From assembly GCF_037975245.1 (NCBI RefSeq), contig NC_092576.1, positions 30,978,611 to 31,042,610 of the forward strand: a stretch of 64,000 nucleotides of DNA, in the 5' to 3' direction. The notes under the pieces are model-generated. The model did not search any database. It was not told the DNA's origin and saw only the letters and a list, made by a program, of their open reading frames with translations. The position numbers and the translations under genes were made by a program. This DNA comes from Apostichopus japonicus. Lineage: Eukaryota; Echinodermata; Holothuroidea; Aspidochirotida; Stichopodidae. The number at the start of each line of letters is the position of its first letter. Position 1 is the first letter of the stretch. Positions 18,350 through 61,169 of this stretch are shown here, piece after piece.

Positions 18350-19759
18350 TGAGCAAGTGAAAAACACAAATTACACTTCCAAAAGGAAATACGTGTCGAA
18401 CCAATGGACATCGTGCTGCGTAACAAAATCAGGGTGTTTCGTCGCTAGGTGGTTCGCCCACTCGCTTGGACTGTTGCACCCGGTAGCACACATTCTTAAG
18501 GGGCACTGAAATCTTTGCGGTTTATCACCAGGGTGACGATCTTTCAAATGGCAAAGCGCGTCACGAAAAGAACGAAACTTCATACTACATCCATTGGAGG
18601 GACATTCATACCACGGCTTTTCTTCGGTAATTACATTCGAGGCACGAACAATATCCCTCGCTCTTTGTACCGCTGGTGTAAACCTTGGTAAGGAGCGAGA
18701 CCTTCTCGGTGGCGAAGATGGCGGTCTTTTCAGGCCGCGGCGAACCTCGATGAAGGGAGACATATCTTCATCCGAACCCTTTTTAACATGTTTTGTGGCA
18801 GGCGTATGGTGCACATCAGCCTGAACGTCCATCAACTCTGGTTCTTGTGCTGGTGTATCCGGTTGGGAATCAGCCCAGCACTGTCCGGAGACCAAATCTT
18901 GGAGCACAGATTCCCCTTCCATACCAGACAGGGTAAAGTCGGTCGGGGTCTCTGGGATCACCTCAGTAGAGTCGTCTGATGTGGTGACGTCATCGATTGC
19001 GTCGGACGAAACAAGGGAGGTCTTCTCTTGGGTAACAGACTGACAACCCTTTTCAACACCGCACTCCTGAATTGGCTGTTCCTCTGCAACTTCAGCTCCT
19101 CCTCTGATCCAAGCCGTAGAGCACTTCAACTTGTTGGAAAAGGACACAGGACAATTTCTGAAGCTGTGGCCTGGTTTTCCACAGGTGGTACACTTCTGGT
19201 CAGCAGTGCAATTTCTGACAACATGTCCAAACTGGAGGCATTTGTAACATTTCGTGACGTCGCACTCCTTCGCTTCATGTCCGCACTTGAGGCATGTACG
19301 AGGTTGACCAGCATACCTCACCCAGCAATCACGACCCCCAAGATTAAGTGAGGACGGGATGTCTGTTGTCAACTCCATCTTATACTGACGTACACCGTTG
19401 TACAAACTCGGGTAGTCTCTGTGGGTGAGAAAGCGGCCACAGATCACCTTTCCAAACTTGCCGAGAACAAATCTAACCGCATTGTCATTCAGTTCATGTG
19501 GTACATGGAGCACAGATACTACTTTCACTGTATCAGCATATGATGTAGCAGTGACATTCGTCGATGAACTAATTGTTGGCCAGAAGCGTCGTTTAAAATC
19601 TTCACTCAAAGACGTTACATCCACTTTTCCACCAGGAAGGGCCTGGACAGCAGTCAAATGGTGAGCAGGATTGATACTGAGGGACTTCAGATACTCAAAA
19701 ACATTTGCTCCAGAACTAAGTTGAAGTTGGATACTGCAATCTCTTCTCGTATGGCGTGC
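15915..19759 (-). mobile_element. Copy A: U2-specific Tx1-group LINE, 3'-truncated
   Basis: The element lies on the minus strand, in the same direction as U2. Its 5' end is joined to U2 nt 1-31 at 19759/19760. ORF1 is open and ORF2 is broken. The lower end stops inside ORF2, just after the ...SGKTELVSRKVVTL region, where the minisatellite begins; the last 300 or so codons and the 3' UTR are missing. Loss of a LINE 3' end is not a normal insertion outcome, so a later deletion or array breakpoint is likely. It belongs to the same subfamily as copy D. Confidence 0.85.
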
Positions 19760-19762
19760 CAT
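18371..19762 (-). CDS. ORF1 of copy A, CCHC/C2H2 nucleic-acid-binding protein
   Basis: Open frame of 463 residues from the ATG at 19762. That ATG is U2 nt 29-31, so the host gene supplies the start codon (MARHTRRDCS...); upstream the frame stays open through U2. The N-terminal 160 residues hold two RRM-like blocks (VKVVSVLHVPHELND). Zinc knuckles follow (CxxCxxxxHxxxxC), but the first is damaged compared with copy D, which has three extra residues (KCG) there. An acidic, Ser/Thr-rich linker leads to an RS-like patch and two C-terminal CX4C...HX4H fingers ending FDTYFLLEV. It probably coats the retrotransposon RNA as ORF1p does in other LINEs. Confidence 0.75.
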   Translation of the reverse strand: MARHTRRDCSIQLQLSSGANVFEYLKSLSINPAHHLTAVQALPGGKVDVTSLSEDFKRRFWPTISSSTNVTATSYADTVKVVSVLHVPHELNDNAVRFVLGKFGKVICGRFLTHRDYPSLYNGVRQYKMELTTDIPSSLNLGGRDCWVRYAGQPRTCLKCGHEAKECDVTKCYKCLQFGHVVRNCTADQKCTTCGKPGHSFRNCPVSFSNKLKCSTAWIRGGAEVAEEQPIQECGVEKGCQSVTQEKTSLVSSDAIDDVTTSDDSTEVIPETPTDFTLSGMEGESVLQDLVSGQCWADSQPDTPAQEPELMDVQADVHHTPATKHVKKGSDEDMSPFIEVRRGLKRPPSSPPRRSRSLPRFTPAVQRARDIVRASNVITEEKPWYECPSNGCSMKFRSFRDALCHLKDRHPGDKPQRFQCPLRMCATGCNSPSEWANHLATKHPDFVTQHDVHWFDTYFLLEV

Positions 19763-24562: not shown

Positions 24563-25593
24563 GTCAACTTTCTTTCTTTCTTGCGTGACATCAACTGCCA
24601 GGGAGCGTCTTCAGCCGGTCGCTTAGCTAGGGATGTGGACTGGTCGACGTGCTCCTGAGCAATGGCGTTCTCCCCTGTAGTTTCCACTACCAGTGAGGAC
24701 TGCTTAACAATATTTACTTCCTCCATCTCGGAGGACCAAGACCCTCCATCACGACGTTGGGAGTGTCGGACAATGCCTTCAAAGGACCTTCTGACGTTGT
24801 GGTCTCGCTGGCAGCGGAAGCTGGCGAGACTTTCTCCTCAACCGGCATTTCCGAGTCAGAAGCCGATTTGCCCTCCTCCTGCGTTTCTGGTAACACTGAT
24901 GCGCCTCCGCTGACCCATGCTGCCGTCGTTGGATGGAGCTTATTCGCAAAGGACACCGGACATGCTTTGTATCCGTGCCCTGACTTGCCACATGTTGTAC
25001 ACGAAGAGGGAGCTTGGCAGTTTCGGGCAGAATGTCCAACCTCATGGCAGTTGTAACACCGGATTACAGCACAGTCTTTGGCCAGATGACCCTCCTCACC
25101 ACACTTTAAACATGTCCTGGGTTGGCCTGGATACCTGACCCAGCAAGATCTCCCACCCAAACTAAGAGATGAGGGGATTTCCTTCGCAAGCTGCATCTTG
25201 TATTGCCGAGTTCCCTTGAAGACAGGGAACTCGCTGTACCGGAGAAAACGGCCTCCAAGGACTTTACCAAAACGACCCAGGGCGAGTCTCACCACGTTGT
25301 CATCCAGTTCGTGTGGGACATGCAAGACAGTGACTATCTTCATGTTACTTGCATACGATGTTGCAGTGAATTTGCAGGAAGCAGACATCGATGGCCAGAA
25401 CTGTTTACGAATTTCCACAGTCTTGAAGGTAACGTCAAAGACTTGCCCTGGTAACGCTTGTACTGCCACCAGATGGTCAGCTGGTAACACACCTAACTCT
25501 TTCAATACCCCGAATACATTAACACTAGGTTCTTCGGCTTGAAGCCTTAACTGTACAGATCTCTCACGCAAGAGTTGTTTCATGTTGAGTACG

Positions 25594-31824: not shown

Positions 31825-33130
31825 CCTTCAAGAAATAGTTGTCAAAAAAGGCTAGGTCGTGTTGACACACGAACCCGGGGTGCTTCGATGCCACATGCAT
31901 CCTCCACTCCGCTGGGTTGTTACATGTACACTCACAGCCCTTCACAGGGCACTCCACCCTGCCAACACTGTAATCAGGGTGCGAACTCGCGGCATGTACA
32001 AGGAAAGCTCCGAAGGATGAAAAATTCTCCTTGCATTTCGGAACAAGGCACGAGAACCAGTCCTTCTTTTCACAAATGATCTGCGACAGCTTAACACAGG
32101 TGCGCGCCCTCTCCACTAGGGGCGTGTGACGCGATCGCGAACGCGATCGTCGTGACGGCTGGGCTCCTTCAAACTGCCGCTTACGTCGGCGTACCGTCAT
32201 CCACAGATCGCTTTCGTCGTCTCCTGGGACCGAGTCCGGCTCAGACTCTCCATCTGCCCAGCTGCCCTTGGCTGCCCCTTTTACCTCTTCCGGGACGTCA
32301 AAGATGCTATCCGTAGCCGTATCGGCACTACCGTCTGAGCCTAGATCAGACATCGACTGTGCCGTCTCGACCACCTCATCAGCCGGGCCCGGGGGACTCG
32401 CACCCGTAGTCGGCGTCTCCATCACAACATCTTCTCCTGAAACGTCCCCTGCCTCCTCAACTTCGACAGGGTCAACCTCTGGCTCCTGTTGCCTCACTTT
32501 GCTGGCAAAAGAGACACCGCACGAACGGAAACCGTGACCGGCTTGGCCACAGGTCTCACAGACGGTAGTCTCCTTGCATGTTGCTGCCACGTGCCCCAGT
32601 TGACCACAGTTGTAACATCTGACTTGGTTGCAGTCAGATGCCAGGTGCCCGACGTCTCCACATTTCAAACAGGTCTTCTGCTGTCCTGAGTATCTCACCC
32701 AGCAGTTTCTCCCGACGATGCGGATGGAGGACGGGATATTCTTCTCCACCTTCATCCTATACTGGCGGGTGCCGTTGTAAAGGTTTGGGAAGTCACGGTG
32801 ACAGAGGCGTCTGCCACTTTCAACTTTTCCAAACCGTCCAAGAACCGACCGGACCACGCTATCATCCAACTCCACCGGAACGTACAGAACCGTTACAATC
32901 TAGGAGGTGGTCACGGAGTCCGGCATCTCAATCAGTTTTGGGAGGAAGTTCCGTTTGACCTCATCGGATTTGAAAGTGACATCAAATCCTCTTCCTGGTA
33001 ACGATTGGACGGCTACGAGATGCTCAGCAACGGACACTCCTATAGCTTTCAGACACTCAAACACATCTTTAATCGATTTTGCCGTAGCAAAACGAACATG
33101 AGCACTTTTGCTCCTTAGAAGTGGCTCCAT
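31817..33130 (-). pseudogene. ORF1 of copy C, one nonsense codon
   Basis: ATG at 33130 (MEPLLRSKSAHVRF). An in-frame TAG at about 32900 falls in the RRM-like region (TTS*IVTVLYVPVELDD). The rest is open: knuckles CLKCGDVGHLASDC, CYNCGQLGHVAATC and CETCGQAGHGFRSC, an acidic linker, an RS patch (RRSRSRSRH) and two C2H2 fingers ending FFDNYFLKDV. Only about 45 percent like ORF1 of A/D by eye, although the adjoining ORF2 start is nearly identical to A/D. Confidence 0.8.
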
Positions 33131-33164
33131 CACAAGATCTTAGTATCTAGAAAGAACAGATACT
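33131..33164 (-). pseudogene. Scrambled U2 target between copies C and D
   Basis: Minus-strand order: U2 nt 35-48 (AGTATCTGTTCTTT), then CTAGATA, then CTAAGATCTTGTG (U2 nt 21-33 with one mismatch), then ORF1 of copy C. U2 nt 1-20 and the promoter are absent, so copy C has no adjacent U2 promoter of its own. Confidence 0.75.
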
Positions 33165-34697: not shown

Positions 34698-34718
34698 TGA
34701 GCAAGTGAAAAACACAAA

Positions 34719-36119
34719 TTACACATCCAAAAGAAAATACGTGTCGAACCAATGGACATCGTGCTGCGTAACAAAATCAGGGTGTTTCGTCGCTAGGTGG
34801 TTCGCCCACTCGCTTGGACTGTTGCACCCGGTAGCACACATTCTTAAGGGGCACTGAAATCTCTGCGGTTTATCACCAGGGTGACGATCTTTCAAATGGC
34901 AAAGCGCGTCACGAAAAGAACGAAACTTCATACTACATCCATTGGAGGGACATTCATACCACGGCTTTTCTTCGGTAATTACATTCGAGGCACGAACAAT
35001 ATCCCTCGCTCTTTGTACCGCCGGTGTAAACCTTGGTAAGGAGCGAGACCTTCTCGGTGGCGAAGATGGCGGTCTTTTCAGGCCGCGGCGAACCTCGATG
35101 AAGGGAGACATATCTTCATCCGAACCCTTTTTAACATGTTTTGTGGCAGGCGTATGGTGCACATCAACCTGAACGTCCATCAAATCTGGTTCTTGTGCTG
35201 GTGTATCCGGTTGGGAATCAGCCCAGCACTGTCCGGAGACCAAATCTTGGAGCACAGATTCCCCTTCCATACCAGACAGGGTAAAGTCGGTCGGGGTCTC
35301 TGGGATCACCTCAGTAGAGTCGTCTGATGTGGTGACGTCATCGATTGCGTCGGACGAAACAAGGGAGGTCTTCTCTTGGGTAACAGACTGACAACCCTTT
35401 TCAACACCGCACTCCTGAATTTGCTGTTCCTCTGCAACTTCAGCTCCTCCTCTAATCCAAGCCGTAGAGCACTTCAACTTGTTGGAAAAGGACACAGGAC
35501 AATTTCTGAAGCTGTGGCCTGGTTTTCCACAGGTGGTACACTTCTGGTCAGCAGTGCAATTTCTGACAACATGTCCAAACTGGAGGCATTTGTAACATTT
35601 CGTGACGTCGCACTCCTTCGCTTCATGTCCGCACTTTCCGCACTTGAGGCATGTACGAGGTTGACCAGCATACCTCACCCAGCAATCACGACCCCCAAGA
35701 TTAAGTGAGGACGGGATGTCTGTTGTCAACTCCATCTTATACTGACGTACACCGTTGTACAAACTCGGGTAGTCTCTGTGGGTGAGAAAGCGGCCACAGA
35801 TCACCTTGCCAAACTTGCCGAGAACAAATCTAACCGCATTGTCATTCAGTTCATGTGGTACATGGAGCACAGATACTACTTTCACTGTATCAGCATATGA
35901 TGTAGCAGTGACATTCGTCGATGAACTAATTGTTGGCCAGAAGCGTCGTTTAACATCTTCACTCAAAAACGTTACATCCACTTTTCCACCAGGAAGGGCC
36001 TGGACAGCAGTCAAATGGTCAGCAGGATTGATACTCAGGGACTTCAGATACTCAAAAACATTTGCTCCAGAACTAAGTTGAAGTTGGATACTGCAATCTC
36101 TTCTCGTATGGCGTGCCAT
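34719..36119 (-). CDS. ORF1 of copy D, complete CCHC/C2H2 protein
   Basis: 466 residues from the ATG at 36119, which is U2 nt 29-31. Three intact knuckles (CLKCGKCGHEAKEC, CYKCLQFGHVVRNC, CTTCGKPGHSFRNC), an acidic linker, an RSRS patch, and two CX4CX12HX4H-type fingers (CPSNGCSMKF..., CPLRMCATGC...) ending FDTYFLLDV. Nearly identical to ORF1 of copy A. The next ATG in the ORF2 frame lies 21 nt past the stop, so the two ORFs do not overlap in this subfamily. Confidence 0.8.
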   Translation of the reverse strand: MARHTRRDCSIQLQLSSGANVFEYLKSLSINPADHLTAVQALPGGKVDVTFLSEDVKRRFWPTISSSTNVTATSYADTVKVVSVLHVPHELNDNAVRFVLGKFGKVICGRFLTHRDYPSLYNGVRQYKMELTTDIPSSLNLGGRDCWVRYAGQPRTCLKCGKCGHEAKECDVTKCYKCLQFGHVVRNCTADQKCTTCGKPGHSFRNCPVSFSNKLKCSTAWIRGGAEVAEEQQIQECGVEKGCQSVTQEKTSLVSSDAIDDVTTSDDSTEVIPETPTDFTLSGMEGESVLQDLVSGQCWADSQPDTPAQEPDLMDVQVDVHHTPATKHVKKGSDEDMSPFIEVRRGLKRPPSSPPRRSRSLPRFTPAVQRARDIVRASNVITEEKPWYECPSNGCSMKFRSFRDALCHLKDRHPGDKPQRFQCPLRMCATGCNSPSEWANHLATKHPDFVTQHDVHWFDTYFLLDV

Positions 36120-42396: not shown

Positions 42397-42421
42397 CTTA
42401 GCCAAAAGGCCGAGAAGCGAT
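42397..42421 (-). pseudogene. U2 snRNA locus 5: 5' fragment (nt 1-25)
   Basis: Shortest 5' U2 remnant in the array; the AUG at nt 29-31 is lost. Confidence 0.88.
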
Positions 42422-43032: not shown

Positions 43033-43174
43033 TTTTAAGAAAAAGTCACCCAGGAAAGAACCTGGGCACGAAAACCTAACTACCAAACGACTGATCCGCT
43101 CTCAGCCCCAGTCCCCTTGCATCGGGACTGTGACTGTGTGATCATCGTCAGGTGTGTATCACCATTCCCTAGGG
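43033..43174 (-). mobile_element. Short U2-specific insert, 142 bp (longest copy)
   Basis: Longest version of the second 3'-end family. On the minus strand it starts CCCTAGGGAATGGTG, has a hairpin CCCAGGTTCTTTCCTGGG, and ends TTTTCTTAAAAA at U2 nt 35. An 11-bp target copy (GAACAGATACT, 43175-43185) follows on the 5' side. No coding capacity and no obvious Pol III boxes. Confidence 0.75.
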
Positions 43175-43185
43175 GAACAGATACT
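43175..43185 (-). repeat. 11-bp U2 target duplication between two short inserts
   Basis: GAACAGATACT, also present at 43022-43032. Confidence 0.8.
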
Positions 43186-43282
43186 TTTTAAGAAAAAGTC
43201 ACCCAGGAAAGAACCTGGGCACGAAAACCAAACTACCAAACGACTGATCCGCTCTCAGCCCCAGTCCCCTTGCATCGGGACT
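43186..43282 (-). mobile_element. Short U2-specific insert, 97 bp
   Basis: Same 3' end, truncated 45 bp further in than its neighbour, and inserted in the target copy left by it. The 5' junction is GGGACT / GATACT. Confidence 0.75.
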
Positions 43283-43322
43283 GATACTACACATGATCTT
43301 AGCCAAAAGGCCGAGAAGCGAT
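43283..43322 (-). pseudogene. U2 snRNA locus 6: 5' fragment (nt 1-40)
   Basis: U2 5' end including the AUG and GUAGUA, then the 97-bp insert. Confidence 0.88.
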
Positions 43323-44145: not shown

Positions 44146-47100
44146 CTACGGTAATGAAACTACTGGCTGGTTATTTACGACGCTCACGAAGGAACTGCCC
44201 TTGACCCAGACCTTGTTAAACTTCACCTCGGGGAGACGTATAAAATCTGCCCTCACTCTTTCGTTTACGTCGCTTTTGATCATGTTGATGACGTCATCAT
44301 CACTCAACCTACGATTTTCAAAGGTCAACAAACATCTACTCCTCCACATAAAATACTTTGTAACGGTAAATATGAACCAAGCCCTGTCGAAGGCTGCTGT
44401 GTCTCCGCTGGGGCTCGGTGTACCGTACAGAAATATTTCCTTCCTGAGCGTCGCATTGTTACCGAAAAGCAGCTGGAATGACCTAAAGGTCCAATGTAAA
44501 ATACCGATTGTGCTAGAACATTCCCAGAAAACATGATCTATTGTTTCTTTCTTTCTACAATTAGTGTGCGGACAGAGCCCGTTTCCTATCCCCCACAGCT
44601 GTAACTTAGCCCGGGTAAAGAGAACCTTATGTACAAGCCGCCATGCAAACACAGTTAATTTGTTCTCTAATACGGGGTTGAATGCCCTCTTCCAAATATC
44701 TTTCCACGGTCTGTCGGGATCATGGTTTTCTACGGACGGCCTAACTACTTCGTGGCGAAGGTGACGCACGATATCTTTCAGCTGTTTAACTTCATCCACA
44801 AAAGCACGGTTTCTGTGAAAGATTGCCTTAATGTGGTGACAAGCCGTGTTTAAAGTAACAGTCCCTGAATCTGAGTTGGGTTTCGAATTAGACCAGAGGA
44901 TGGGAAAACAAGCCCGGAGAGGCTTAGCTATGAGGTACCTGACGAACATTAGGTGGGGCAAAGAGAAATCCCCTGACAATACGGGCAGAATAGGCTTTAC
45001 TAGTAGGGCAGAAGCCTTCTCCCCTACACGGTCCAACCCTAACCCTCCCTCCGTTTTACTGAGGGTAACAACTTTTCTCGACACCAATTCTGTTTTACCG
45101 GACCACAAGAATGTGAATGCAGCCCCTTGTATTTTACGGATTAATTGGTCCGACATGGGAAAAACTGGGGCGACAAAGAAAAACAAGGGATAAATTACCA
45201 CGTTTAAAACTAAGACTTTACCGATAAGAGACAATTGCCTGCTCTTCCACGCGTTTAAACAATTCTTTGCCGTTTCTAGTTTCTGTGACCAGTTGCTAGT
45301 CACTGCATTGACTGTGCCGAACACTACACCTGTTATTTTAATCTCCGTGTCCTTCCAGTCTATGTTGCCTGGTAGTTTCCTCCCTACAAAACCCCCCAGC
45401 TTTAAACCGGCTGTTTTGTTCATGTTAATGGTCGCACCGGTAGCTTTGTGAAAAAGTTCAAAAGCGTGAAAGAACTGACGAATGTCACTTCCGTTGGTTC
45501 CGATACACGTGGTATCGTCCGCGTACTGTAACAATTTAACAACTTTCCCACCCGCCCCGGGAATGGTGAATCCCCGAATATTCTTAGAAAGGTTGATGAA
45601 CCTGGCTAGCGGCTCAATGAATAACACATACAGCGAGGGTGACAAGGGACACCCTTGTCTTACACCCCTCTTGATCCTTACGTCATCGGAAAGATGACCG
45701 TTAATTAAAATACGGCTAGTAATGCCGTTGTACAAAATACGAATCCACTTCCGGAAGTTTTCTCCCAGCTTAAACTTCAACAATATTCTGTGAAGGAAGT
45801 CCCAATTAACTTTATCAAAGGCTTTCTCTTGATCTATGGAGATAAGCGCACAGGGAGTCTGACTGTCTTTCACGTAGTCGATGATGTCACGACAAAGCAA
45901 TAAATTATGATGAATAGACCGGCCCGGCACAGAACATGTTTGGCTCTCACTCGCTAATAGCGGCATACAACGTGTCAATCTGTTTTGAATAATCTTTGAC
46001 AAGATCTTATAATCAACACTCAGGAGACTTATTGGTCTACGGTTGGCCGGGTCGTGGGGGTCACCTTTCTTCGGCAGAAGAACGATAATAGCCGTTTTCT
46101 GTGTCAGAGAGAGAGAGCCTTTACTGAAAATTTCGTGGAATACCGAGAGTAGATCTGTGCCGAGGAGGTCAAAGAACTGTGCGTAAAACTCGCACGGCAA
46201 ACCATCAATCCCAGGTGTCTTATTGAATGCCATTAACGATAATGCTTGTTTAAGTTCAGAGAGTTCAATCGGTCTCTCCAGTGCGTCGATTGAATCATCG
46301 TCTAACACAGAACCAATACAATCTAATAGTTGATCTTGCACGCCGGTAGCGGCGTCAAATTCTACGTTGTAAAGTGATGAATAAAACTCGTGATAGGCTT
46401 TGATAATTTCTTTCTGATCACGGGTCACGTGACCCTGTGTAGTACGGACAGAGCAAATCGACTTGCCTTCAGCGCGATGCCTTTCTTCTTTGAAGAAGAA
46501 AGACGAGGGGCTTTCCCCGGCTTCTAAATGTTTCACCCTAGAACGGATGAGAGCGCCCTGATGTTCGTTCTTTAAAAGAGATTCTAACTCAGTTTTGTCG
46601 GCGTTAATACAACTATTCTGCAGGGTTGAAATTCGGTCGCGCCTTTCGTTAGCCAGGCGAACCCCGTGCTTGATGATAAGTCGCTTTGCTCTGTCTTTGA
46701 AATCCTCCCACCAATCAATAATAGAATCATACCCCGGTTTAAGGGTAGACCAAAGATGAAAATATTGAACGAAATCAGATTTGAATTCAGAATCGTTCAG
46801 AACAGAAACATTACATTTCCATACACCTTTACCCTTACGTTGGGCATTAACAATATCAAAACGAATAGAGACCAAGTTATGGTCGGACAAAGAAAATGAC
46901 ACATTCGAAACATTTTTAATTGAAATAATATTACGGGGGTAATAAATTCGGTCAATGCGGGAACTCTGTTCCTTCCCCGGGTGGCCCCAAGTGTGCCCAG
47001 GGGACTGAGGGTAAATATCTCGCCAGGCATCGCCAAGATTCCGAGAAGCGGTAAAAGCTTTCAATTCCTGCCAACCCACGTGGCAGGAGGAATTTGTAGA

Positions 47101-47598
47101 TACACCCGATCTATCGACATTCTTCTCAATGGAGTTAAAGTCACCAGCGAGTAGTACTGATTGATTACCACGTGTCATATTATACAAATTATTGAAAAAT
47201 GAGACTCGCTTCCTGGGGCTGTTCGGTGCATAAATATTACAAAACCTGACGCACGTGGAGTCGGGGAAACTGACCAGGGCTGAAATGTATCGCCCTTCTA
47301 AATCCTTACGGATCTGATCTATCTTACCTTTGAAGGAGGTGGAGAAGGCTATGCCGACTCCACCGGACTGCGGGGAGGGGGAAGGGGAAAAAACAAAGTT
47401 CCCGTTCCACTCTTTGTTAAAATGAAAACAATCTTCCTCATTACGAAAATGAGTTTCTTGGAGAAACACGATATCATAGTTAAACAATTTTAAATATTGA
47501 GCCACTTGACGGCATTTCACTTTGTCACGCAGACCGTTGACATTTAATGTGCAAAGAATAAACATTGAGATAATAAAAGGGGCATTAACAGGTTTCAT
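44146..47598 (-). CDS. ORF2 of K1: APE endonuclease-reverse transcriptase, 1150 aa
   Basis: ATG 47598, starting inside the ORF1 end (14-nt overlap). APE domain at about residues 15-245: LNVNG near 20, FLQETHF near 47-52, AGDFNS near 152-157 and SLSDHN near 237-242. RT domain at about 445-720: NRRPISLLSVDYK near 520, IDQEKAFDKVNW near 589-600, [15 protein letters not shown] near 645-659, and YADD at 693-696, the catalytic aspartates. C-terminal zinc knuckle CPHTNC...HVFWEC at about 1010-1028. Performs target-primed reverse transcription at U2. No stops, no missing key residue; it may be active. Confidence 0.95.
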   Translation of the reverse strand: MKPVNAPFIISMFILCTLNVNGLRDKVKCRQVAQYLKLFNYDIVFLQETHFRNEEDCFHFNKEWNGNFVFSPSPSPQSGGVGIAFSTSFKGKIDQIRKDLEGRYISALVSFPDSTCVRFCNIYAPNSPRKRVSFFNNLYNMTRGNQSVLLAGDFNSIEKNVDRSGVSTNSSCHVGWQELKAFTASRNLGDAWRDIYPQSPGHTWGHPGKEQSSRIDRIYYPRNIISIKNVSNVSFSLSDHNLVSIRFDIVNAQRKGKGVWKCNVSVLNDSEFKSDFVQYFHLWSTLKPGYDSIIDWWEDFKDRAKRLIIKHGVRLANERRDRISTLQNSCINADKTELESLLKNEHQGALIRSRVKHLEAGESPSSFFFKEERHRAEGKSICSVRTTQGHVTRDQKEIIKAYHEFYSSLYNVEFDAATGVQDQLLDCIGSVLDDDSIDALERPIELSELKQALSLMAFNKTPGIDGLPCEFYAQFFDLLGTDLLSVFHEIFSKGSLSLTQKTAIIVLLPKKGDPHDPANRRPISLLSVDYKILSKIIQNRLTRCMPLLASESQTCSVPGRSIHHNLLLCRDIIDYVKDSQTPCALISIDQEKAFDKVNWDFLHRILLKFKLGENFRKWIRILYNGITSRILINGHLSDDVRIKRGVRQGCPLSPSLYVLFIEPLARFINLSKNIRGFTIPGAGGKVVKLLQYADDTTCIGTNGSDIRQFFHAFELFHKATGATINMNKTAGLKLGGFVGRKLPGNIDWKDTEIKITGVVFGTVNAVTSNWSQKLETAKNCLNAWKSRQLSLIGKVLVLNVVIYPLFFFVAPVFPMSDQLIRKIQGAAFTFLWSGKTELVSRKVVTLSKTEGGLGLDRVGEKASALLVKPILPVLSGDFSLPHLMFVRYLIAKPLRACFPILWSNSKPNSDSGTVTLNTACHHIKAIFHRNRAFVDEVKQLKDIVRHLRHEVVRPSVENHDPDRPWKDIWKRAFNPVLENKLTVFAWRLVHKVLFTRAKLQLWGIGNGLCPHTNCRKKETIDHVFWECSSTIGILHWTFRSFQLLFGNNATLRKEIFLYGTPSPSGDTAAFDRAWFIFTVTKYFMWRSRCLLTFENRRLSDDDVINMIKSDVNERVRADFIRLPEVKFNKVWVKGSSFVSVVNNQPVVSLP

Positions 47599-49075
47599 CA
47601 ATAAAATAAAGGTCGAAAAACTCTGTGTTGTGACTCAGGACATAATTGGGGTGCCTGTTGGCTAAGTGGTTAGCCCATTCCTGATGATCATTGCACCGTA
47701 CAGTGCAACCACGTACGGGGCAATCAATACGTTCAAGGGAAGTAACCTGGTGGTCTCTTACTTGGTGAATATTATGCAAATCCGAAGAATTAAATTCTTC
47801 GGAGCACCCGTCCCTCCCACACGTGATCCAGTTCCCGGTCTCGGTGAAGATTTTTGACCTGAGAACAATCTCCCGTGCCGAGTCTACTACCCCTTCCCGC
47901 TTAGCGGGTCTACTCTGAGAGCGCGACCGTTGTGAAGATCGGCCTCTTTTCAGACTATTACGGTCCCGCTGCCTTCCCGCCCCCTCCCCATCTACTTCCC
48001 CCATTCCCGTAAACATACCCTCGGATGGGTCAGAATCTAATCGCTGACCCATTTCTCCAACGCTCTCGCTCCAGTCTCCTTGACTCCATTCCATCTGTGT
48101 TTCTTCTGGATTCACAGTTTCGCCTTCGGCCTTGCTCGCGGATCTGGCGTTGCCCGCCCTCTCCTGCCCCACCCCTTCGTCCGACTGCTCGGACAACACT
48201 TCGTCTGCCTCAGTACTCGTCTGTGGTACGTCTCCTTTCCCTTCGCTTAAATCATCCTTATCCGCTGTCTCAGGGAGTTTGGGGGCGTCGACCTCGGCCC
48301 CTTCCCCCTTTTCACTCCCCGTGCCTTCCTCTGCAGTCGTAGGTGGTACGTCTTCCCCTTCTTTCTCGTCGTTACCCTGGACCCTGGCTCCTCCGCTGAC
48401 CCACTCCGATGTGGGGTTGATCAGTCGGTTCGCGAAAGAGACGGGGCACTTCCGGTAGCCGTGACCCTCTTTGCCGCACGTCGTGCACACCACCTTCTCC
48501 ACACACTGGCTCGCTACGTGCCCCAGCTTGAAGCACTTAAAACACTTCACTTGATTGCAAGCGGCTGCCAAGTGGCCTGTCCCGTCACATTTCAGGCAGG
48601 TGATCGGCTGACCCCTATACCTGACCCAACACTGCCTGCCCGCTAGTTTGAGAGAAGACGGCACGTCTTTCTCAAGGACAACTTTGTATTGACGTATTCC
48701 GTTGAAGACGCCAGACTGATCCTTATAAGTTAAGAATGTTCCGCCAACAACTTTGCCGTACCTCCCTAGCACAAAACGAACAACGTTGTCGTCCAGTTCA
48801 TACGGTACGTGAAGAACGGTAATAATTTTCACGTTCTCCACGTAATTGTTTGTCACTACTTCAGGTTCCTCACTTAAGATTTTCACATATTTATTTTTAA
48901 TGTCTGCCGATTTAAAGGAGACATCATACAAACGCCCAGGCAGAGACTGAACTGCCACTAAATCTTTGGTCTCAATTCCATTTTTCTTTAAAAGTTGAAA
49001 AACATCACTAACTGTGACATCCTTCTGAAACTTCAGGGATAAAGTCAAAACTCGTTGAAGCGAGTTTCTTTCCAT
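47585..49075 (-). CDS. ORF1 of K1: RRM-like, CCHC and C2H2 protein, 496 aa
   Basis: ATG 49075, 1 nt after the stop of a leader ORF. Residues 1-155 hold two RRM-like blocks (KDLVAVQSLPGRLYDVSF; VKIITVLHVPYELDD). Knuckles of CX2CX4HX4C form at about 160-173, 178-191 and 197-210. An acidic Glu/Gly-rich linker spans about 225-375, an RGRSSQRSRSQSR patch lies near 380-400, and two CX4CX12H... fingers at about 415-475 end FFDLYFIDETC. This resembles ORF1 of Tx1-group elements. Role: nucleocapsid-like binding of element RNA; the C2H2 pair might contact U2 DNA, which is speculation. Confidence 0.93.
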   Translation of the reverse strand: MERNSLQRVLTLSLKFQKDVTVSDVFQLLKKNGIETKDLVAVQSLPGRLYDVSFKSADIKNKYVKILSEEPEVVTNNYVENVKIITVLHVPYELDDNVVRFVLGRYGKVVGGTFLTYKDQSGVFNGIRQYKVVLEKDVPSSLKLAGRQCWVRYRGQPITCLKCDGTGHLAAACNQVKCFKCFKLGHVASQCVEKVVCTTCGKEGHGYRKCPVSFANRLINPTSEWVSGGARVQGNDEKEGEDVPPTTAEEGTGSEKGEGAEVDAPKLPETADKDDLSEGKGDVPQTSTEADEVLSEQSDEGVGQERAGNARSASKAEGETVNPEETQMEWSQGDWSESVGEMGQRLDSDPSEGMFTGMGEVDGEGAGRQRDRNSLKRGRSSQRSRSQSRPAKREGVVDSAREIVLRSKIFTETGNWITCGRDGCSEEFNSSDLHNIHQVRDHQVTSLERIDCPVRGCTVRCNDHQEWANHLANRHPNYVLSHNTEFFDLYFIDETC

Positions 49076-49076
49076 G

Positions 49077-49253
49077 TTAAAGTACCCGAGCCCGAAGGCT
49101 GGGTATTTCCGAATTACTCAAAAACCAAAACAAAATTATAGTCACCACGGATTCCGCAGGCACAGCCCACGCGCTCACTGAAACGTAGTACAAATCACGA
49201 GAGAGCTGTAAAACACGTCCGCTCACACCGAGAAAAGAACAGATACTACACAT
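49077..49253 (-). CDS. Chimeric U2/element leader ORF, 58 codons (K1)
   Basis: Starts at the AUG of U2 nt 29-31 (MCSICSFLGVSG...), crosses GUAGUA and the target duplication, spans the whole 156-bp leader and stops at TAA 1 nt before the ORF1 ATG (TAACATGG). It has a hydrophobic stretch (SVVTIILFWFL). Either a real coupled cistron that hands ribosomes to ORF1, or a chance opening; chance alone would leave 58 codons open in only a few percent of cases. Expression not shown. Confidence 0.4.
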   Translation of the reverse strand: MCSICSFLGVSGRVLQLSRDLYYVSVSAWAVPAESVVTIILFWFLSNSEIPSLRARVL

Positions 49254-49281
49254 GATCTTAGCCAAAAGGCCGAGAAGCGAT
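49232..49281 (-). pseudogene. U2 snRNA locus 7: 5' fragment (nt 1-50)
   Basis: Includes the second copy of the 16-bp duplication; full promoter spacer upstream. Confidence 0.93.
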
Positions 49282-50104: not shown

Positions 50105-53100
50105 CTACGGTAATGAAACTACTGGCTGGTTATTTACGACGCTCACGAAGGAACTGCCCTTGACCCAGACCTTGTTAAACTTCACCTCGGGGAGACGTAT
50201 AAAATCTGCCCTCACTCTTTCGTTTACGTCGCTTTTGATCATGTTGATGACGTCATCATCACTCAACCTACGATTTTCAAAGGTCAACAAACATCTACTC
50301 CTCCACATAAAATACTTTGTAACGGTAAATATGAACCAAGCCCTGTCGAAGGCTGCTGTGTCTCCGCTGGGGCTCGGTGTACCGTACAGAAATATTTCCT
50401 TCCTGAGCGTCGCATTGTTACCGAAAAGCAGCTGGAATGACCTAAAGGTCCAATGTAAAATACCGATTGTGCTAGAACATTCCCAGAAAACATGATCTAT
50501 TGTTTCTTTCTTTCTACAATTAGTGTGCGGACAGAGCCCGTTTCCTATCCCCCACAGCTGTAACTTAGCCCGGGTAAAGAGAACCTTATGTACAAGCCGC
50601 CATGCAAACACAGTTAATTTGTTCTCTAATACGGGGTTGAATGCCCTCTTCCAAATATCTTTCCACGGTCTGTCGGGATCATGGTTTTCTACGGACGGCC
50701 TAACTACTTCGTGGCGAAGGTGACGCACGATATCTTTCAGCTGTTTAACTTCATCCACAAAAGCACGGTTTCTGTGAAAGATTGCCTTAATGTGGTGACA
50801 AGCCGTGTTTAAAGTAACAGTCCCTGAATCTGAGTTGGGTTTCGAATTAGACCAGAGGATGGGAAAACAAGCCCGGAGAGGCTTAGCTATGAGGTACCTG
50901 ACGAACATTAGGTGGGGCAAAGAGAAATCCCCTGACAATACGGGCAGAATAGGCTTTACTAGTAGGGCAGAAGCCTTCTCCCCTACACGGTCCAACCCTA
51001 ACCCTCCCTCCGTTTTACTGAGGGTAACAACTTTTCTCGACACCAATTCTGTTTTACCGGACCACAAGAATGTGAATGCAGCCCCTTGTATTTTACGGAT
51101 TAATTGGTCCGACATGGGAAAAACTGGGGCGACAAAGAAAAACAAGGGATAAATTACCACGTTTAAAACTAAGACTTTACCGATAAGAGACAATTGCCTG
51201 CTCTTCCACGCGTTTAAACAATTCTTTGCCGTTTCTAGTTTCTGTGACCAGTTGCTAGTCACTGCATTGACTGTGCCGAACACTACACCTGTTATTTTAA
51301 TCTCCGTGTCCTTCCAGTCTATGTTGCCTGGTAGTTTCCTCCCTACAAAACCCCCCAGCTTTAAACCGGCTGTTTTGTTCATGTTAATGGTCGCACCGGT
51401 AGCTTTGTGAAAAAGTTCAAAAGCGTGAAAGAACTGACGAATGTCACTTCCGTTGGTTCCGATACACGTGGTATCGTCCGCGTACTGTAACAATTTAACA
51501 ACTTTCCCACCCGCCCCGGGAATGGTGAATCCCCGAATATTCTTAGAAAGGTTGATGAACCTGGCTAGCGGCTCAATGAATAACACATACAGCGAGGGTG
51601 ACAAGGGACACCCTTGTCTTACACCCCTCTTGATCCTTACGTCATCGGAAAGATGACCGTTAATTAAAATACGGCTAGTAATGCCGTTGTACAAAATACG
51701 AATCCACTTCCGGAAGTTTTCTCCCAGCTTAAACTTCAACAATATTCTGTGAAGGAAGTCCCAATTAACTTTATCAAAGGCTTTCTCTTGATCTATGGAG
51801 ATAAGCGCACAGGGAGTCTGACTGTCTTTCACGTAGTCGATGATGTCACGACAAAGCAATAAATTATGATGAATAGACCGGCCCGGCACAGAACATGTTT
51901 GGCTCTCACTCGCTAATAGCGGCATACAACGTGTCAATCTGTTTTGAATAATCTTTGACAAGATCTTATAATCAACACTCAGGAGACTTATTGGTCTACG
52001 GTTGGCCGGGTCGTGGGGGTCACCTTTCTTCGGCAGAAGAACGATAATAGCCGTTTTCTGTGTCAGAGAGAGAGAGCCTTTACTGAAAATTTCGTGGAAT
52101 ACCGAGAGTAGATCTGTGCCGAGGAGGTCAAAGAACTGTGCGTAAAACTCGCACGGCAAACCATCAATCCCAGGTGTCTTATTGAATGCCATTAACGATA
52201 ATGCTTGTTTAAGTTCAGAGAGTTCAATCGGTCTCTCCAGTGCGTCGATTGAATCATCGTCTAACACAGAACCAATACAATCTAATAGTTGATCTTGCAC
52301 GCCGGTAGCGGCGTCAAATTCTACGTTGTAAAGTGATGAATAAAACTCGTGATAGGCTTTGATAATTTCTTTCTGATCACGGGTCACGTGACCCTGTGTA
52401 GTACGGACAGAGCAAATCGACTTGCCTTCAGCGCGATGCCTTTCTTCTTTGAAGAAGAAAGACGAGGGGCTTTCCCCGGCTTCTAAATGTTTCACCCTAG
52501 AACGGATGAGAGCGCCCTGATGTTCGTTCTTTAAAAGAGATTCTAACTCAGTTTTGTCGGCGTTAATACAACTATTCTGCAGGGTTGAAATTCGGTCGCG
52601 CCTTTCGTTAGCCAGGCGAACCCCGTGCTTGATGATAAGTCGCTTTGCTCTGTCTTTGAAATCCTCCCACCAATCAATAATAGAATCATACCCCGGTTTA
52701 AGGGTAGACCAAAGATGAAAATATTGAACGAAATCAGATTTGAATTCAGAATCGTTCAGAACAGAAACATTACATTTCCATACACCTTTACCCTTACGTT
52801 GGGCATTAACAATATCAAAACGAATAGAGACCAAGTTATGGTCGGACAAAGAAAATGACACATTCGAAACATTTTTAATTGAAATAATATTACGGGGGTA
52901 ATAAATTCGGTCAATGCGGGAACTCTGTTCCTTCCCCGGGTGGCCCCAAGTGTGCCCAGGGGACTGAGGGTAAATATCTCGCCAGGCATCGCCAAGATTC
53001 CGAGAAGCGGTAAAAGCTTTCAATTCCTGCCAACCCACGTGGCAGGAGGAATTTGTAGATACACCCGATCTATCGACATTCTTCTCAATGGAGTTAAAGT

Positions 53101-53557
53101 CACCAGCGAGTAGTACTGATTGATTACCACGTGTCATATTATACAAATTATTGAAAAATGAGACTCGCTTCCTGGGGCTGTTCGGTGCATAAATATTACA
53201 AAACCTGACGCACGTGGAGTCGGGGAAACTGACCAGGGCTGAAATGTATCGCCCTTCTAAATCCTTACGGATCTGATCTATCTTACCTTTGAAGGAGGTG
53301 GAGAAGGCTATGCCGACTCCACCGGACTGCGGGGAGGGGGAAGGGGAAAAAACAAAGTTCCCGTTCCACTCTTTGTTAAAATGAAAACAATCTTCCTCAT
53401 TACGAAAATGAGTTTCTTGGAGAAACACGATATCATAGTTAAACAATTTTAAATATTGAGCCACTTGACGGCATTTCACTTTGTCACGCAGACCGTTGAC
53501 ATTTAATGTGCAAAGAATAAACATTGAGATAATAAAAGGGGCATTAACAGGTTTCAT
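50105..53557 (-). CDS. ORF2 of K2, 1150 aa, intact
   Basis: Protein identical to ORF2 of K1, with all endonuclease, RT and knuckle residues. Its ATG (53557) overlaps the ORF1 stop by one base as TGATG, unlike the 14-nt overlap of K1 and K3. Confidence 0.95.
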   Translation of the reverse strand: MKPVNAPFIISMFILCTLNVNGLRDKVKCRQVAQYLKLFNYDIVFLQETHFRNEEDCFHFNKEWNGNFVFSPSPSPQSGGVGIAFSTSFKGKIDQIRKDLEGRYISALVSFPDSTCVRFCNIYAPNSPRKRVSFFNNLYNMTRGNQSVLLAGDFNSIEKNVDRSGVSTNSSCHVGWQELKAFTASRNLGDAWRDIYPQSPGHTWGHPGKEQSSRIDRIYYPRNIISIKNVSNVSFSLSDHNLVSIRFDIVNAQRKGKGVWKCNVSVLNDSEFKSDFVQYFHLWSTLKPGYDSIIDWWEDFKDRAKRLIIKHGVRLANERRDRISTLQNSCINADKTELESLLKNEHQGALIRSRVKHLEAGESPSSFFFKEERHRAEGKSICSVRTTQGHVTRDQKEIIKAYHEFYSSLYNVEFDAATGVQDQLLDCIGSVLDDDSIDALERPIELSELKQALSLMAFNKTPGIDGLPCEFYAQFFDLLGTDLLSVFHEIFSKGSLSLTQKTAIIVLLPKKGDPHDPANRRPISLLSVDYKILSKIIQNRLTRCMPLLASESQTCSVPGRSIHHNLLLCRDIIDYVKDSQTPCALISIDQEKAFDKVNWDFLHRILLKFKLGENFRKWIRILYNGITSRILINGHLSDDVRIKRGVRQGCPLSPSLYVLFIEPLARFINLSKNIRGFTIPGAGGKVVKLLQYADDTTCIGTNGSDIRQFFHAFELFHKATGATINMNKTAGLKLGGFVGRKLPGNIDWKDTEIKITGVVFGTVNAVTSNWSQKLETAKNCLNAWKSRQLSLIGKVLVLNVVIYPLFFFVAPVFPMSDQLIRKIQGAAFTFLWSGKTELVSRKVVTLSKTEGGLGLDRVGEKASALLVKPILPVLSGDFSLPHLMFVRYLIAKPLRACFPILWSNSKPNSDSGTVTLNTACHHIKAIFHRNRAFVDEVKQLKDIVRHLRHEVVRPSVENHDPDRPWKDIWKRAFNPVLENKLTVFAWRLVHKVLFTRAKLQLWGIGNGLCPHTNCRKKETIDHVFWECSSTIGILHWTFRSFQLLFGNNATLRKEIFLYGTPSPSGDTAAFDRAWFIFTVTKYFMWRSRCLLTFENRRLSDDDVINMIKSDVNERVRADFIRLPEVKFNKVWVKGSSFVSVVNNQPVVSLP

Positions 53558-55032
53558 CAATAAAAAAGGTCGAAAAACTCTGTGTTGTGACTCAGGACAT
53601 AATTGGGGTGCCTGTTGGCTAAGTGGTTAGCCCATTCCTGATGATCATTGCACCGTACAGTGCAACCACGTACGGGGCAATCAATACGTTCAAGGGAAGT
53701 AACCTGGTGGTCTCTTACTTGGTGAATATTATGCAAATCCGAAGAATTAAATTCTTCGGAGCACCCGTCCCTCCCACACGTGATCCAGTTCCCGGTCTCG
53801 GTGAAGATTTTTGACCTGAGAACAATCTCCCGTGCCGAGTCTACTACCCCTTCCCGCTTAGCGGGTCTACTCTGAGAGCGCGACCGTTGTGAAGATCGGC
53901 CTCTTTTCAGACTATTACGGTCCCGCTGCCTTCCCGCCCCCTCCCCATCTACTTCCCCCATTCCCGTAAACATACCCTCGGATGGGTCAGAATCTAATCG
54001 CTGACCCATTTCTCCAACGCTCTCGCTCCAGTCTCCTTGACTCCATTCCATCTGTGTTTCTTCTGGATTCACAGTTTCGCCTTCGGCCTTGCTCGCGGAT
54101 CTGGCGTTGCCCGCCCTCTCCTGCCCCACCCCTTCGTCCGACTGCTCGGACAACACTTCGTCTGCCTCAGTACTCGTCTGTGGTACGTCTCCTTTCCCTT
54201 CGCTTAAATCATCCTTATCCGCTGTCTCAGGGTGTTTGGGGGCGTCGACCTCGGCCCCTTCCCCCTTTTCACTCCCCGTGCCTTCCTCTGCAGTCGTAGG
54301 TGGTACGTCTTCCCCTTCTTTCTCGTCGTTACCCTGGACCCTGGCTCCTCCGCTGACCCACTCCGATGTGGGGTTGATCAGTCGGTTCGCGAAAGAGACG
54401 GGGCACTTCCGGTAGCCGTGACCCTCTTTGCCGCACGTCGTGCACACCACCTTCTCCACACACTGGCTCGCTACGTGCCCCAGCTTGAAGCACTTAAAAC
54501 ACTTCACTTGATTGCAAGCGGCTGCCAAGTGGCCTGTCCCGTCACATTTCAGGCAGGTGATCGGCTGACCCCTATACCTGACCCAACACTGCCTGCCCGC
54601 TAGTTTGAGAGAAGACGGCACGTCTTTCTCAAGGACAACTTTGTATTGACGTATTCCGTTGAAGACGCCAGACTGATCCTTATAAGTTAAGAATGTTCCG
54701 CCAACAACTTTGCCGTACCTCCCTAGCACAAAACGAACAACGTTGTCGTCCAGTTCATACGGTACGTGAAGAACGGTAATAATTTTCACGTTCTCCACGT
54801 AATTGTTTGTCACTACTTCAGGTTCCTCACTTAAGATTTTCACATATTTATTTTTAATGTCTGCCGATTTAAAGGAGACATCATACAAACGCCCAGGCAG
54901 AGACTGAACTGCCACTAAATCTTTGGTCTCAATTCCATTTTTCTTTAAAAGTTGAAAAACATCACTAACTGTGACATCCTTCTGAAACTTCAGGGATAAA
55001 GTCAAAACTCGTTGAAGCGAGTTTCTTTCCAT
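53557..55032 (-). CDS. ORF1 of K2, 491 aa, altered C-terminus
   Basis: As ORF1 of K1 except that a 2-nt deletion near 53566 replaces the last residues (FDLYFIDETC becomes FDLFY) and moves the stop onto the ORF2 start. All zinc-binding residues are kept, so it is probably still functional. Confidence 0.92.
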   Translation of the reverse strand: MERNSLQRVLTLSLKFQKDVTVSDVFQLLKKNGIETKDLVAVQSLPGRLYDVSFKSADIKNKYVKILSEEPEVVTNNYVENVKIITVLHVPYELDDNVVRFVLGRYGKVVGGTFLTYKDQSGVFNGIRQYKVVLEKDVPSSLKLAGRQCWVRYRGQPITCLKCDGTGHLAAACNQVKCFKCFKLGHVASQCVEKVVCTTCGKEGHGYRKCPVSFANRLINPTSEWVSGGARVQGNDEKEGEDVPPTTAEEGTGSEKGEGAEVDAPKHPETADKDDLSEGKGDVPQTSTEADEVLSEQSDEGVGQERAGNARSASKAEGETVNPEETQMEWSQGDWSESVGEMGQRLDSDPSEGMFTGMGEVDGEGAGRQRDRNSLKRGRSSQRSRSQSRPAKREGVVDSAREIVLRSKIFTETGNWITCGRDGCSEEFNSSDLHNIHQVRDHQVTSLERIDCPVRGCTVRCNDHQEWANHLANRHPNYVLSHNTEFFDLFY

Positions 55033-55033
55033 G

Positions 55034-55210
55034 TTAAAGTACCCGAGCCCGAAGGCTGGGTATTTCCGAATTACTCAAAAACCAAAACAAAATTATAGTC
55101 ACCACGGATTCCGCAGGCACAGCCCACGCGCTCACTGAAACGTAGTACAAATCACGAGAGAGCTGTAAAACACGTCCGCTCACACCGAGAAAAGAACAGA
55201 TACTACACAT
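55034..55210 (-). CDS. Chimeric U2/element leader ORF (K2)
   Basis: Same 58 codons, same 1-nt gap to ORF1 as in K1. Confidence 0.4.
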   Translation of the reverse strand: MCSICSFLGVSGRVLQLSRDLYYVSVSAWAVPAESVVTIILFWFLSNSEIPSLRARVL

Positions 55211-56061: not shown

Positions 56062-59000
56062 CTACGGTAATGAAACTACTGGCTGGTTATTTACGACGCT
56101 CACGAAGGAACTGCCCTTGACCCAGACCTTGTTAAACTTCACCTCGGGGAGACGTATAAAATCTGCCCTCACTCTTTCGTTTACGTCGCTTTTGATCATG
56201 TTGATGACGTCATCATCACTCAACCTACGATTTTCAAAGGTCAACAAACATCTACTCCTCCACATAAAATACTTTGTAACGGTAAATATGAACCAAGCCC
56301 TGTCGAAGGCTGCTGTGTCTCCGCTGGGGCTCGGTGTACCGTACAGAAATATTTCCTTCCTGAGCGTCGCATTGTTACCGAAAAGCAGCTGGAATGACCT
56401 AAAGGTCCAATGTAAAATACCGATTGTGCTAGAACATTCCCAGAAAACATGATCTATTGTTTCTTTCTTTCTACAATTAGTGTGCGGACAGAGCCCGTTT
56501 CCTATCCCCCACAGCTGTAACTTAGCCCGGGTAAAGAGAACCTTATGTACAAGCCGCCATGCAAACACAGTTAATTTGTTCTCTAATACGGGGTTGAATG
56601 CCCTCTTCCAAATATCTTTCCACGGTCTGTCGGGATCATGGTTTTCTACGGACGGCCTAACTACTTCGTGGCGAAGGTGACGCACGATATCTTTCAGCTG
56701 TTTAACTTCATCCACAAAAGCACGGTTTCTGTGAAAGATTGCCTTAATGTGGTGACAAGCCGTGTTTAAAGTAACAGTCCCTGAATCTGAGTTGGGTTTC
56801 GAATTAGACCAGAGGATGGGAAAACAAGCCCGGAGAGGCTTAGCTATGAGGTACCTGACGAACATTAGGTGGGGCAAAGAGAAATCCCCTGACAATACGG
56901 GCAGAATAGGCTTTACTAGTAGGGCAGAAGCCTTCTCCCCTACACGGTCCAACCCTAACCCTCCCTCCGTTTTACTGAGGGTAACAACTTTTCTCGACAC
57001 CAATTCTGTTTTACCGGACCACAAGAATGTGAATGCAGCCCCTTGTATTTTACGGATTAATTGGTCCGACATGGGAAAAACTGGGGCGACAAAGAAAAAC
57101 AAGGGATAAATTACCACGTTTAAAACTAAGACTTTACCGATAAGAGACAATTGCCTGCTCTTCCACGCGTTTAAACAATTCTTTGCCGTTTCTAGTTTCT
57201 GTGACCAGTTGCTAGTCACTGCATTGACTGTGCCGAACACTACACCTGTTATTTTAATCTCCGTGTCCTTCCAGTCTATGTTGCCTGGTAGTTTCCTCCC
57301 TACAAAACCCCCCAGCTTTAAACCGGCTGTTTTGTTCATGTTAATGGTCGCACCGGTAGCTTTGTGAAAAAGTTCAAAAGCGTGAAAGAACTGACGAATG
57401 TCACTTCCGTTGGTTCCGATACACGTGGTATCGTCCGCGTACTGTAACAATTTAACAACTTTCCCACCCGCCCCGGGAATGGTGAATCCCCGAATATTCT
57501 TAGAAAGGTTGATGAACCTGGCTAGCGGCTCAATGAATAACACATACAGCGAGGGTGACAAGGGACACCCTTGTCTTACACCCCTCTTGATCCTTACGTC
57601 ATCGGAAAGATGACCGTTAATTAAAATACGGCTAGTAATGCCGTTGTACAAAATACGAATCCACTTCCGGAAGTTTTCTCCCAGCTTAAACTTCAACAAT
57701 ATTCTGTGAAGGAAGTCCCAATTAACTTTATCAAAGGCTTTCTCTTGATCTATGGAGATAAGCGCACAGGGAGTCTGACTGTCTTTCACGTAGTCGATGA
57801 TGTCACGACAAAGCAATAAATTATGATGAATAGACCGGCCCGGCACAGAACATGTTTGGCTCTCACTCGCTAATAGCGGCATACAACGTGTCAATCTGTT
57901 TTGAATAATCTTTGACAAGATCTTATAATCAACACTCAGGAGACTTATTGGTCTACGGTTGGCCGGGTCGTGGGGGTCACCTTTCTTCGGCAGAAGAACG
58001 ATAATAGCCGTTTTCTGTGTCAGAGAGAGAGAGCCTTTACTGAAAATTTCGTGGAATACCGAGAGTAGATCTGTGCCGAGGAGGTCAAAGAACTGTGCGT
58101 AAAACTCGCACGGCAAACCATCAATCCCAGGTGTCTTATTGAATGCCATTAACGATAATGCTTGTTTAAGTTCAGAGAGTTCAATCGGTCTCTCCAGTGC
58201 GTCGATTGAATCATCGTCTAACACAGAACCAATACAATCTAATAGTTGATCTTGCACGCCGGTAGCGGCGTCAAATTCTACGTTGTAAAGTGATGAATAA
58301 AACTCGTGATAGGCTTTGATAATTTCTTTCTGATCACGGGTCACGTGACCCTGTGTAGTACGGACAGAGCAAATCGACTTGCCTTCAGCGCGATGCCTTT
58401 CTTCTTTGAAGAAGAAAGACGAGGGGCTTTCCCCGGCTTCTAAATGTTTCACCCTAGAACGGATGAGAGCGCCCTGATGTTCGTTCTTTAAAAGAGATTC
58501 TAACTCAGTTTTGTCGGCGTTAATACAACTATTCTGCAGGGTTGAAATTCGGTCGCGCCTTTCGTTAGCCAGGCGAACCCCGTGCTTGATGATAAGTCGC
58601 TTTGCTCTGTCTTTGAAATCCTCCCACCAATCAATAATAGAATCATACCCCGGTTTAAGGGTAGACCAAAGATGAAAATATTGAACGAAATCAGATTTGA
58701 ATTCAGAATCGTTCAGAACAGAAACATTACATTTCCATACACCTTTACCCTTACGTTGGGCATTAACAATATCAAAACGAATAGAGACCAAGTTATGGTC
58801 GGACAAAGAAAATGACACATTCGAAACATTTTTAATTGAAATAATATTACGGGGGTAATAAATTCGGTCAATGCGGGAACTCTGTTCCTTCCCCGGGTGG
58901 CCCCAAGTGTGCCCAGGGGACTGAGGGTAAATATCTCGCCAGGCATCGCCAAGATTCCGAGAAGCGGTAAAAGCTTTCAATTCCTGCCAACCCACGTGGC

Positions 59001-60992: not shown

Positions 60993-61169
60993 TTAAAGTA
61001 CCCGAGCCCGAAGGCTGGGTATTTCCGAATTACTCAAAAACCAAAACAAAATTATAGTCACCACGGATTCCGCAGGCACAGCCCACGCGCTCACTGAAAC
61101 GTAGTACAAATCACGAGAGAGCTGTAAAACACGTCCGCTCACACCGAGAAAAGAACAGATACTACACAT
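60993..61169 (-). CDS. Chimeric U2/element leader ORF (K3)
   Basis: Same as in K1: starts at the U2 AUG, stops 1 nt before ORF1. Confidence 0.4.
   Translation of the reverse strand: MCSICSFLGVSGRVLQLSRDLYYVSVSAWAVPAESVVTIILFWFLSNSEIPSLRARVL

Follow-up and report, generated by a model that had tools for sequence, protein, structure and literature searches.

Seven lineages of Keno-like retrotransposons in a U2 small nuclear RNA (snRNA) gene array of the holothurian Apostichopus japonicus relate in different ways to an AUG triplet of the host U2 RNA (nt 29-31), which lies a few bases before the retrotransposon insertion site. The analysis concerns a stretch of 64,000 nucleotides (contig NC_092576.1, here C16, of assembly GCF_037975245.1, positions 30,978,611 to 31,042,610; hereafter the window), which is part of a U2 gene array with a 645-bp unit on the minus strand. 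In three copies of one element, K1-K3, the host AUG opens a frame of 58 codons that ends next to the first open reading frame (ORF1), and a first-pass annotation had taken this as a sign that the element evolved its leader to use a host AUG. The comparison across the seven lineages is a stronger result than the K frame. The explanation that we find somewhat probable overall is that the K frame is incidental, and that the U2-resident lineages relate to the host AUG in three ways: by using it as the ORF1 start codon, by having lost it, or by keeping it in front with its frame closed.

Junctions were surveyed over a longer stretch that includes the window (C16:30950001-31172610; 222,610 bases, no N), in which every U2 match of at least 16 nt was listed and its 5' and 3' junctions were recorded; genome-wide counts were taken over the 671-Mb genome. 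The mitochondrial COX1 gene, read by eye under several genetic codes, makes best sense with AAA as Asn and ATA as Ile (table 9), in keeping with an echinoderm host and not with a fish, which had been considered at first. The array contains 56 intact U2 copies, 55 of which are exact to the reference, and nt 29-31 are likewise ATG in all four C15 U2 genes fetched. Human U2 has AAG where the host U2 has AUG. When short interspersed elements (SINEs) are included, 22 of 29 3' junctions resume at U2 nt 35 and the remaining seven, all from family G, resume at nt 38; for elements A and E9, the 3' junction lies outside the stretch read. Because the host AUG precedes the insertion site, any element RNA that started at the U2 cap would meet this AUG first.

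Seven lineages and the host AUG

Elements A, C and H (3/3) join right after U2 nt 31, and the U2 AUG is the first codon of their ORF1. The ORF1 of element A (18371..19762; all features described here lie on the minus strand and are given in window coordinates) has 463 codons, the first at 19762-19760, and that of element C (34719..36119) has 466 codons, the first at 36119-36117. This start aligns with the position of the element's own ATG in B, E and K. The N-terminal segment of the A and C proteins includes RRDCSI, which is common to E, and further on AVQ.LPG, which is common to K, F and E; with this segment shared, the A and C start cannot lie far downstream. The context of the U2 AUG in both elements has A at -3 and G at +4. 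Element H (L017) belongs to a different family from A and C and has the same junction, with a frameshifted ORF1, and ORF2 is broken in all three elements (decayed in A and C). The U2 AUG appears to start the first protein of the sister families A/C and H.

In other lineages the AUG is gone. The five full-length G copies all join after nt 30 (ATCAT joined to T, with the AUG cut), and both truncated G copies join after nt 45. All five E copies join after nt 25, with the AUG deleted (the U2 fragment of L001 has one extra letter); in element E0, U2 is represented by nt 1-25 only (42397..42421), and the element's own short leader comes next. B, F1 and F2 (3/3) read ACG for the U2 ATG and have their own ATG within ~10 nt; in B, the U2 fragment with ACG (nt 1-29 or 1-32) lies upstream of an ORF1 fragment with its own ATG (24714..25583). 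The 5' end of element I, found inside element C (33128..33164), consists of U2 nt 35-48, a 20-nt leader and an ATG of its own, and this leader is similar to U2 nt 22-33, with TTG in place of ATG (23 of 20,000 letter shuffles were as good). Since the U2 copies of the array and of C15 have ATG, neither the ACG of B, F1 and F2 nor the TTG of I consists of local U2 letters.

Only K retains the U2 AUG upstream of ORF1. From the sequences, junctions and counts, we infer where the element RNAs might start, what might be translated from them and why the pattern might have arisen. In A/C and H, the host AUG would serve as the ORF1 start codon; it no longer stands intact in E, G, B/F and I, being deleted, cut or replaced; and K, with the host frame closed 1 nt before ORF1, would be spared any run of translation into ORF1, if that frame is ever translated. 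A bolder statement is that a host spliceosomal RNA supplies a retrotransposon with its start codon, such that the ORF1 protein of A/C and H would be made only from copies in U2 genes read off the U2 promoter, and other U2-resident lineages would have had to get rid of the AUG or, in the case of K, to end its frame just before ORF1. We offer this version tentatively and lean rather against it.

The junctions recur in copies that differ in how far they can be told from array duplicates. At least some of the K copies, all with an identical 5' junction, seem to have inserted independently: between K1 and K6 there is one difference in 5,298 element bases versus five in 900 bases of flank (Fisher p 0.0003), K1 and K4 have three element versus four flanking differences (p 0.011), and K1 and K2 have two versus three (p 0.024). 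The contrast was not significant for K1 versus K3 (p 0.057) or K4 versus K6 (p 0.38). The same test gave p 0.007 for B versus F. Separate insertion could not be shown for G, where G1 and G5 have 21 differences in 5,042 element bases and 3 in 900 flanking bases, or for E, where E9 versus E1 gave p 0.11 on the first block and the other two blocks differ more.

The 58-codon frame of element K

By their sequence, K1-K3 are full-length copies of a Keno-like non-LTR (long terminal repeat) retrotransposon that targets U2 snRNA genes. U2 nt 1-50 lie upstream of K1 (49232..49281, with the AUG at 49253-49251), and nt 35-50 (49247-49232) recur at its 3' junction as a 16-bp duplication. The leader or 5' untranslated region (UTR) of K1 is 156 nt long and free of ATG (49076..49231). 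It is followed by ORF1 (47585..49075), which encodes 496 amino acids with a CCHC zinc knuckle, and by ORF2 (44146..47598), which encodes 1150 amino acids with an endonuclease and a reverse transcriptase (Pfam matches Exo_endo_phos, 3.3e-19, and RVT_1, 3.5e-38) in a frame that shares 14 nt with the end of ORF1. The 58-codon frame runs from the U2 AUG to TAA at 49077..49253 in K1, at 55034..55210 in K2 (ORF1 53557-55032, ORF2 50105-53557) and at 60993..61169 in K3 (ORF1 59501-60991, ORF2 56062-59514). These 177 nt are letter-identical in K1-K3 and comprise ATG, 57 codons and TAA, after which come a single C and the ATG of ORF1. The first-pass annotation was exact in describing this arrangement, which is also found in three further array copies (L012-L014), all six copies being identical. 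Compared with K1, K2 lacks 2 nt and has an ORF1 that stops earlier, at the start of ORF2; K5 (L013) has a stop in ORF1, and both ORFs are open in K1, K3, K4 and K6.

To compare the fit between frame and ORF1 with chance, the 156-nt leader was dinucleotide-shuffled 20,000 times. In 2,184 of the shuffles (11%) the frame stayed open at least as far as 12 nt from ORF1, and in 236 (1.2%) its stop was no more than 6 nt away from the ORF1 AUG. The spacing in K is unusual, but it was judged post hoc and the odds are moderate. The signature expected of an evolved upstream protein (an ORF0) was absent from codon usage and domain content: the frame scores -0.01 bits per codon, compared with -0.02 (sd 0.09) for off-frame DNA and 0.20 (sd 0.09) for in-frame windows of ORF1 and ORF2, and it has no Pfam match at E 0.01. 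The leader has an unremarkable fold (z -0.74 without U2 and -1.50 with U2). The sole diverged K copy found, L015, which is 89% identical over the aligned part of ORF1, has leader gaps of 9 nt and 86 nt, the latter not a multiple of 3, and an early stop in ORF1; the early stop marks it as a dead copy, which neither supports nor refutes the frame. Judging from codon score, domain search and chance odds, the K frame is most probably incidental, an upstream frame that is tolerated and not an evolved protein; the ORF0 reading is possible, and less likely than this one.

RNA starts and competing explanations

Several junctions hint at RNAs that begin with U2. The difference between full-length and truncated G junctions is what would be expected if the G RNA included U2 nt 1-30 and paired with the target upstream, a mechanism already proposed for R2, and it suggests a U2-initiated template; alternatively, one odd founding insertion could have been multiplied in the array. 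The U2-like leader of I and a SINE head made of U2 nt 1-45 also suggest U2-initiated RNA, and the K sequences do not clearly do so. A/C, H, G, I and the SINE might all use such an RNA as template, and K might be transcribed, at least in part, from a start at its own 5' end, past the U2 AUG.

U2-headed SINE material (element D, 43033..43322) occupies the same U2 insertion site. SINEs S2-S4 of the array each have 187 bases between junctions, and in these copies the SINE head and the U2 5' end of the target have merged into one. The 21-mer from the U2 5' end has 616 exact matches genome-wide, 454 of which extend through ATCATGTGTAG, and the dispersed hits that were fetched, a non-random sample, match S2 in 16 of 16 cases; in L053 and L059, the match ends at position 131 of the 187. 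The SINE with the U2 head (U2 nt 1-45) appears abundant genome-wide, and some of its copies sit at the retrotransposon site in the U2 array.

The frame of K invites two other explanations. The first-pass annotation proposed that K evolved its leader so that the host AUG drives a 58-codon ORF0 with coupled termination and reinitiation at ORF1, a proposal that we now consider unlikely. What stands of it is that the frame is open across the whole leader and closes 1 nt before ORF1, and that the sister families show the U2 AUG to matter; the AUG in front of K also has A at -3, and stop-start coupling does exist in non-LTR elements, both in SART1 (covered parts of PMC5972666) and, as TAATG at the ORF1/ORF2 junction, in family E here. 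What finds no support is the evolved, coding ORF0, given a codon score like that of off-frame DNA, no Pfam match and copies too alike to give comparative support, together with the unremarkable fold and a promoter-like motif inside the leader; in addition, TAA-C-ATG is non-overlapping and lacks the UAAUG of SART1-type coupling. The motif leads to the other explanation, in which an internal promoter with GGACGTG, resembling a downstream promoter element (DPE), drives K mRNA from a point past the U2 AUG, such that the frame would never be in the mRNA and the leader would be an ordinary ATG-free 5' UTR. We regard this as a serious possibility, though one that falls short of probable. The motif lies at 49214..49220 in K1 and recurs, as [A/G]GACGTGTTT, in the leaders of the dispersed families d3 (3/3) and d4 (5/5). 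DPE motifs have been reported from a number of non-LTR element promoters (PMC4748587), CGTG lying at +25 to +28 in L1Tc and at +28 to +32 elsewhere; with the spacing given in the covered parts of that source (+25 to +34), K would start near U2 nt 35-41, beyond the AUG. K pairs with d3 in an internal ORF1 tree (support 87/89). Moreover, K joins after U2 nt 50 both in full-length copies (6/6) and in the one 5'-truncated K-like copy, so nt 50 would simply be the second-strand cut position of K, and K would need no U2-headed RNA. The internal ORF2 tree, however, joins d3 with F (95/97) and not with K, and in these ORF trees G and d4 form long branches whose joining may be false. The motif is also inconstant in its distance from the leader 5' end (26 in d3, ~20-23 in d4 and 11 in K without U2 letters), and the G leader has no GGACGTG-type motif. 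With spacing that varies between families, an internal K start is a lead and not proof. All four long leaders (K, G, d3 and d4) are free of ATG, but so were 627, 1,410, 1,433 and 277 of 5,000 shuffles, respectively (5.5-29%), and ATG-free leaders were rejected as a sign of selection since each alone is common in shuffles. A supposed homology between the beginning of the d3 leader and U2 nt 35-50 was set aside as unproven: 884 of 20,000 shuffles matched U2 equally well, as did 123 of 20,000 16-mers drawn at random from the array.

For A/C and H, the AUG might instead belong to the element and coincide with that of U2 through microhomology at the 5' junction (ATCATG), and here the evidence seems to us evenly poised. 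Five dispersed sister copies (L025, L026, L029, L032 and L033) have ATCATGGC, the letters of U2 nt 26-31 plus GC, at the ORF1 start, at or very near the upstream divergence point and with no adjoining U2. On the other side, the inserted site holds one ATG only, in register with U2, and the same junction is found in H, which is of a different family. The comparison of A with C cuts both ways: over the first 1,850 aligned bases alone, there are 16 element differences versus 10 of 391 in the flank (p 0.009), but over all aligned blocks the count is 70 of 3,723 versus 10 of 391 (p 0.34), and separate insertion is not demonstrated. That last result also weighs against our preferred explanation, that of an incidental K frame and three ways of dealing with the host AUG, as do several other observations. 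Since A, C and H have decayed, their use of the U2 AUG has to be deduced from relics, and the 463 codons of A and C differ by 6 synonymous and 7 non-synonymous changes, with no sign of purifying selection. Family E has its own upstream AUG with a 6-codon frame (M-Q-R-Y-G-A-stop) that overlaps ORF1, which means that upstream AUGs are not strictly avoided. With regard to K, a stop exactly 1 nt before the ORF1 AUG arose in 140 of the 20,000 shuffled leaders (0.7%), and the copies that look separately inserted all keep the frame arrangement.

Related systems and other features of the array

Keno is a non-LTR retrotransposon with an apurinic/apyrimidinic endonuclease (APE type) that targets U2 genes (PMC4640811, covered parts). 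The elements described here are like it in inserting into U2 snRNA genes at one fixed 3' site and in encoding an APE-type endonuclease and a reverse transcriptase; the likeness is one of description and not of published junction letters, and the trees compare these elements only with one another. They differ in that one array houses several lineages whose 5' junctions are not the same, and use or removal of the U2 AUG is unmentioned in the covered parts of the Keno source. R2 RNA is co-transcribed with its 28S rRNA target and may carry 5' target letters that are proposed to guide the 5' junction, and in this respect it resembles our proposal for G, I and the SINE; R2 differs in having a ribozyme like that of hepatitis delta virus (HDV) and another kind of endonuclease, and a host start codon is unmentioned in the covered parts of that source (PMC6895275). 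The likeness to SART1 lies in an adjacent stop and start, best seen in the TAATG of family E, the only family with TAATG at ORF1/ORF2 among the junctions printed; in K, by contrast, TAA-C-ATG precedes ORF1 and the upstream frame begins in host RNA. From the ORF1 stop to the ORF2 ATG, there is an overlap of 14 nt in K and 1 nt in E, and there are gaps of 8 nt in G, ~21 nt in C and 33 nt in F. Primate LINE-1 (a long interspersed element, LINE) has an ORF0 that is antisense and element-encoded. Like this ORF0, the K frame is an additional frame at the 5' end of the element; it differs in being sense, host-started and devoid of a coding signature. SINEs with snRNA-derived heads were reportedly described by Kojima in 2015, and the array SINE is likened to these by description, not by sequence, in that an snRNA 5' end forms its head.

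If a host snRNA gene does provide promoter, leader and start codon, site specificity would be tied to protein expression, and off-target copies would be silent. The expression of leaderless site-specific LINEs would become a testable question, and a small difference in a host snRNA, such as AUG versus AAG, could shape the resident parasites. No report of a host U2 start codon for a retrotransposon protein was found in the parts covered of the open-access literature searched. No chimeras of a U2 head with K or C were seen off the array; the 8 K-leader matches (7 loci) are all on C16, and among the 91 of 930 candidates that were scored, only the A and C rows exceed 57% protein identity to C.

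The dispersed sister elements (L019-L026, L028, L029, L032 and L033) have their ORF1 ATG a few bases from the upstream divergence point between copies, and seem to have almost no 5' UTR. Several of them adjoin tRNA-like stretches, as judged by eye, and upstream of ORF1 in L026 there are repeated GGCTATCATG-like units, as might be left by a reverse transcriptase that slips or jumps on reaching the 5' end of its RNA. Element C is a composite (28171-36116), with a decayed body followed by U2 nt 35-48 and the second element I in tandem, and with a SINE fragment at its 3' end. The window also contains a tandem array (25688-27778) with a 150-bp unit derived from part of the U2 spacer, present in 13.9 copies with 99% matches.
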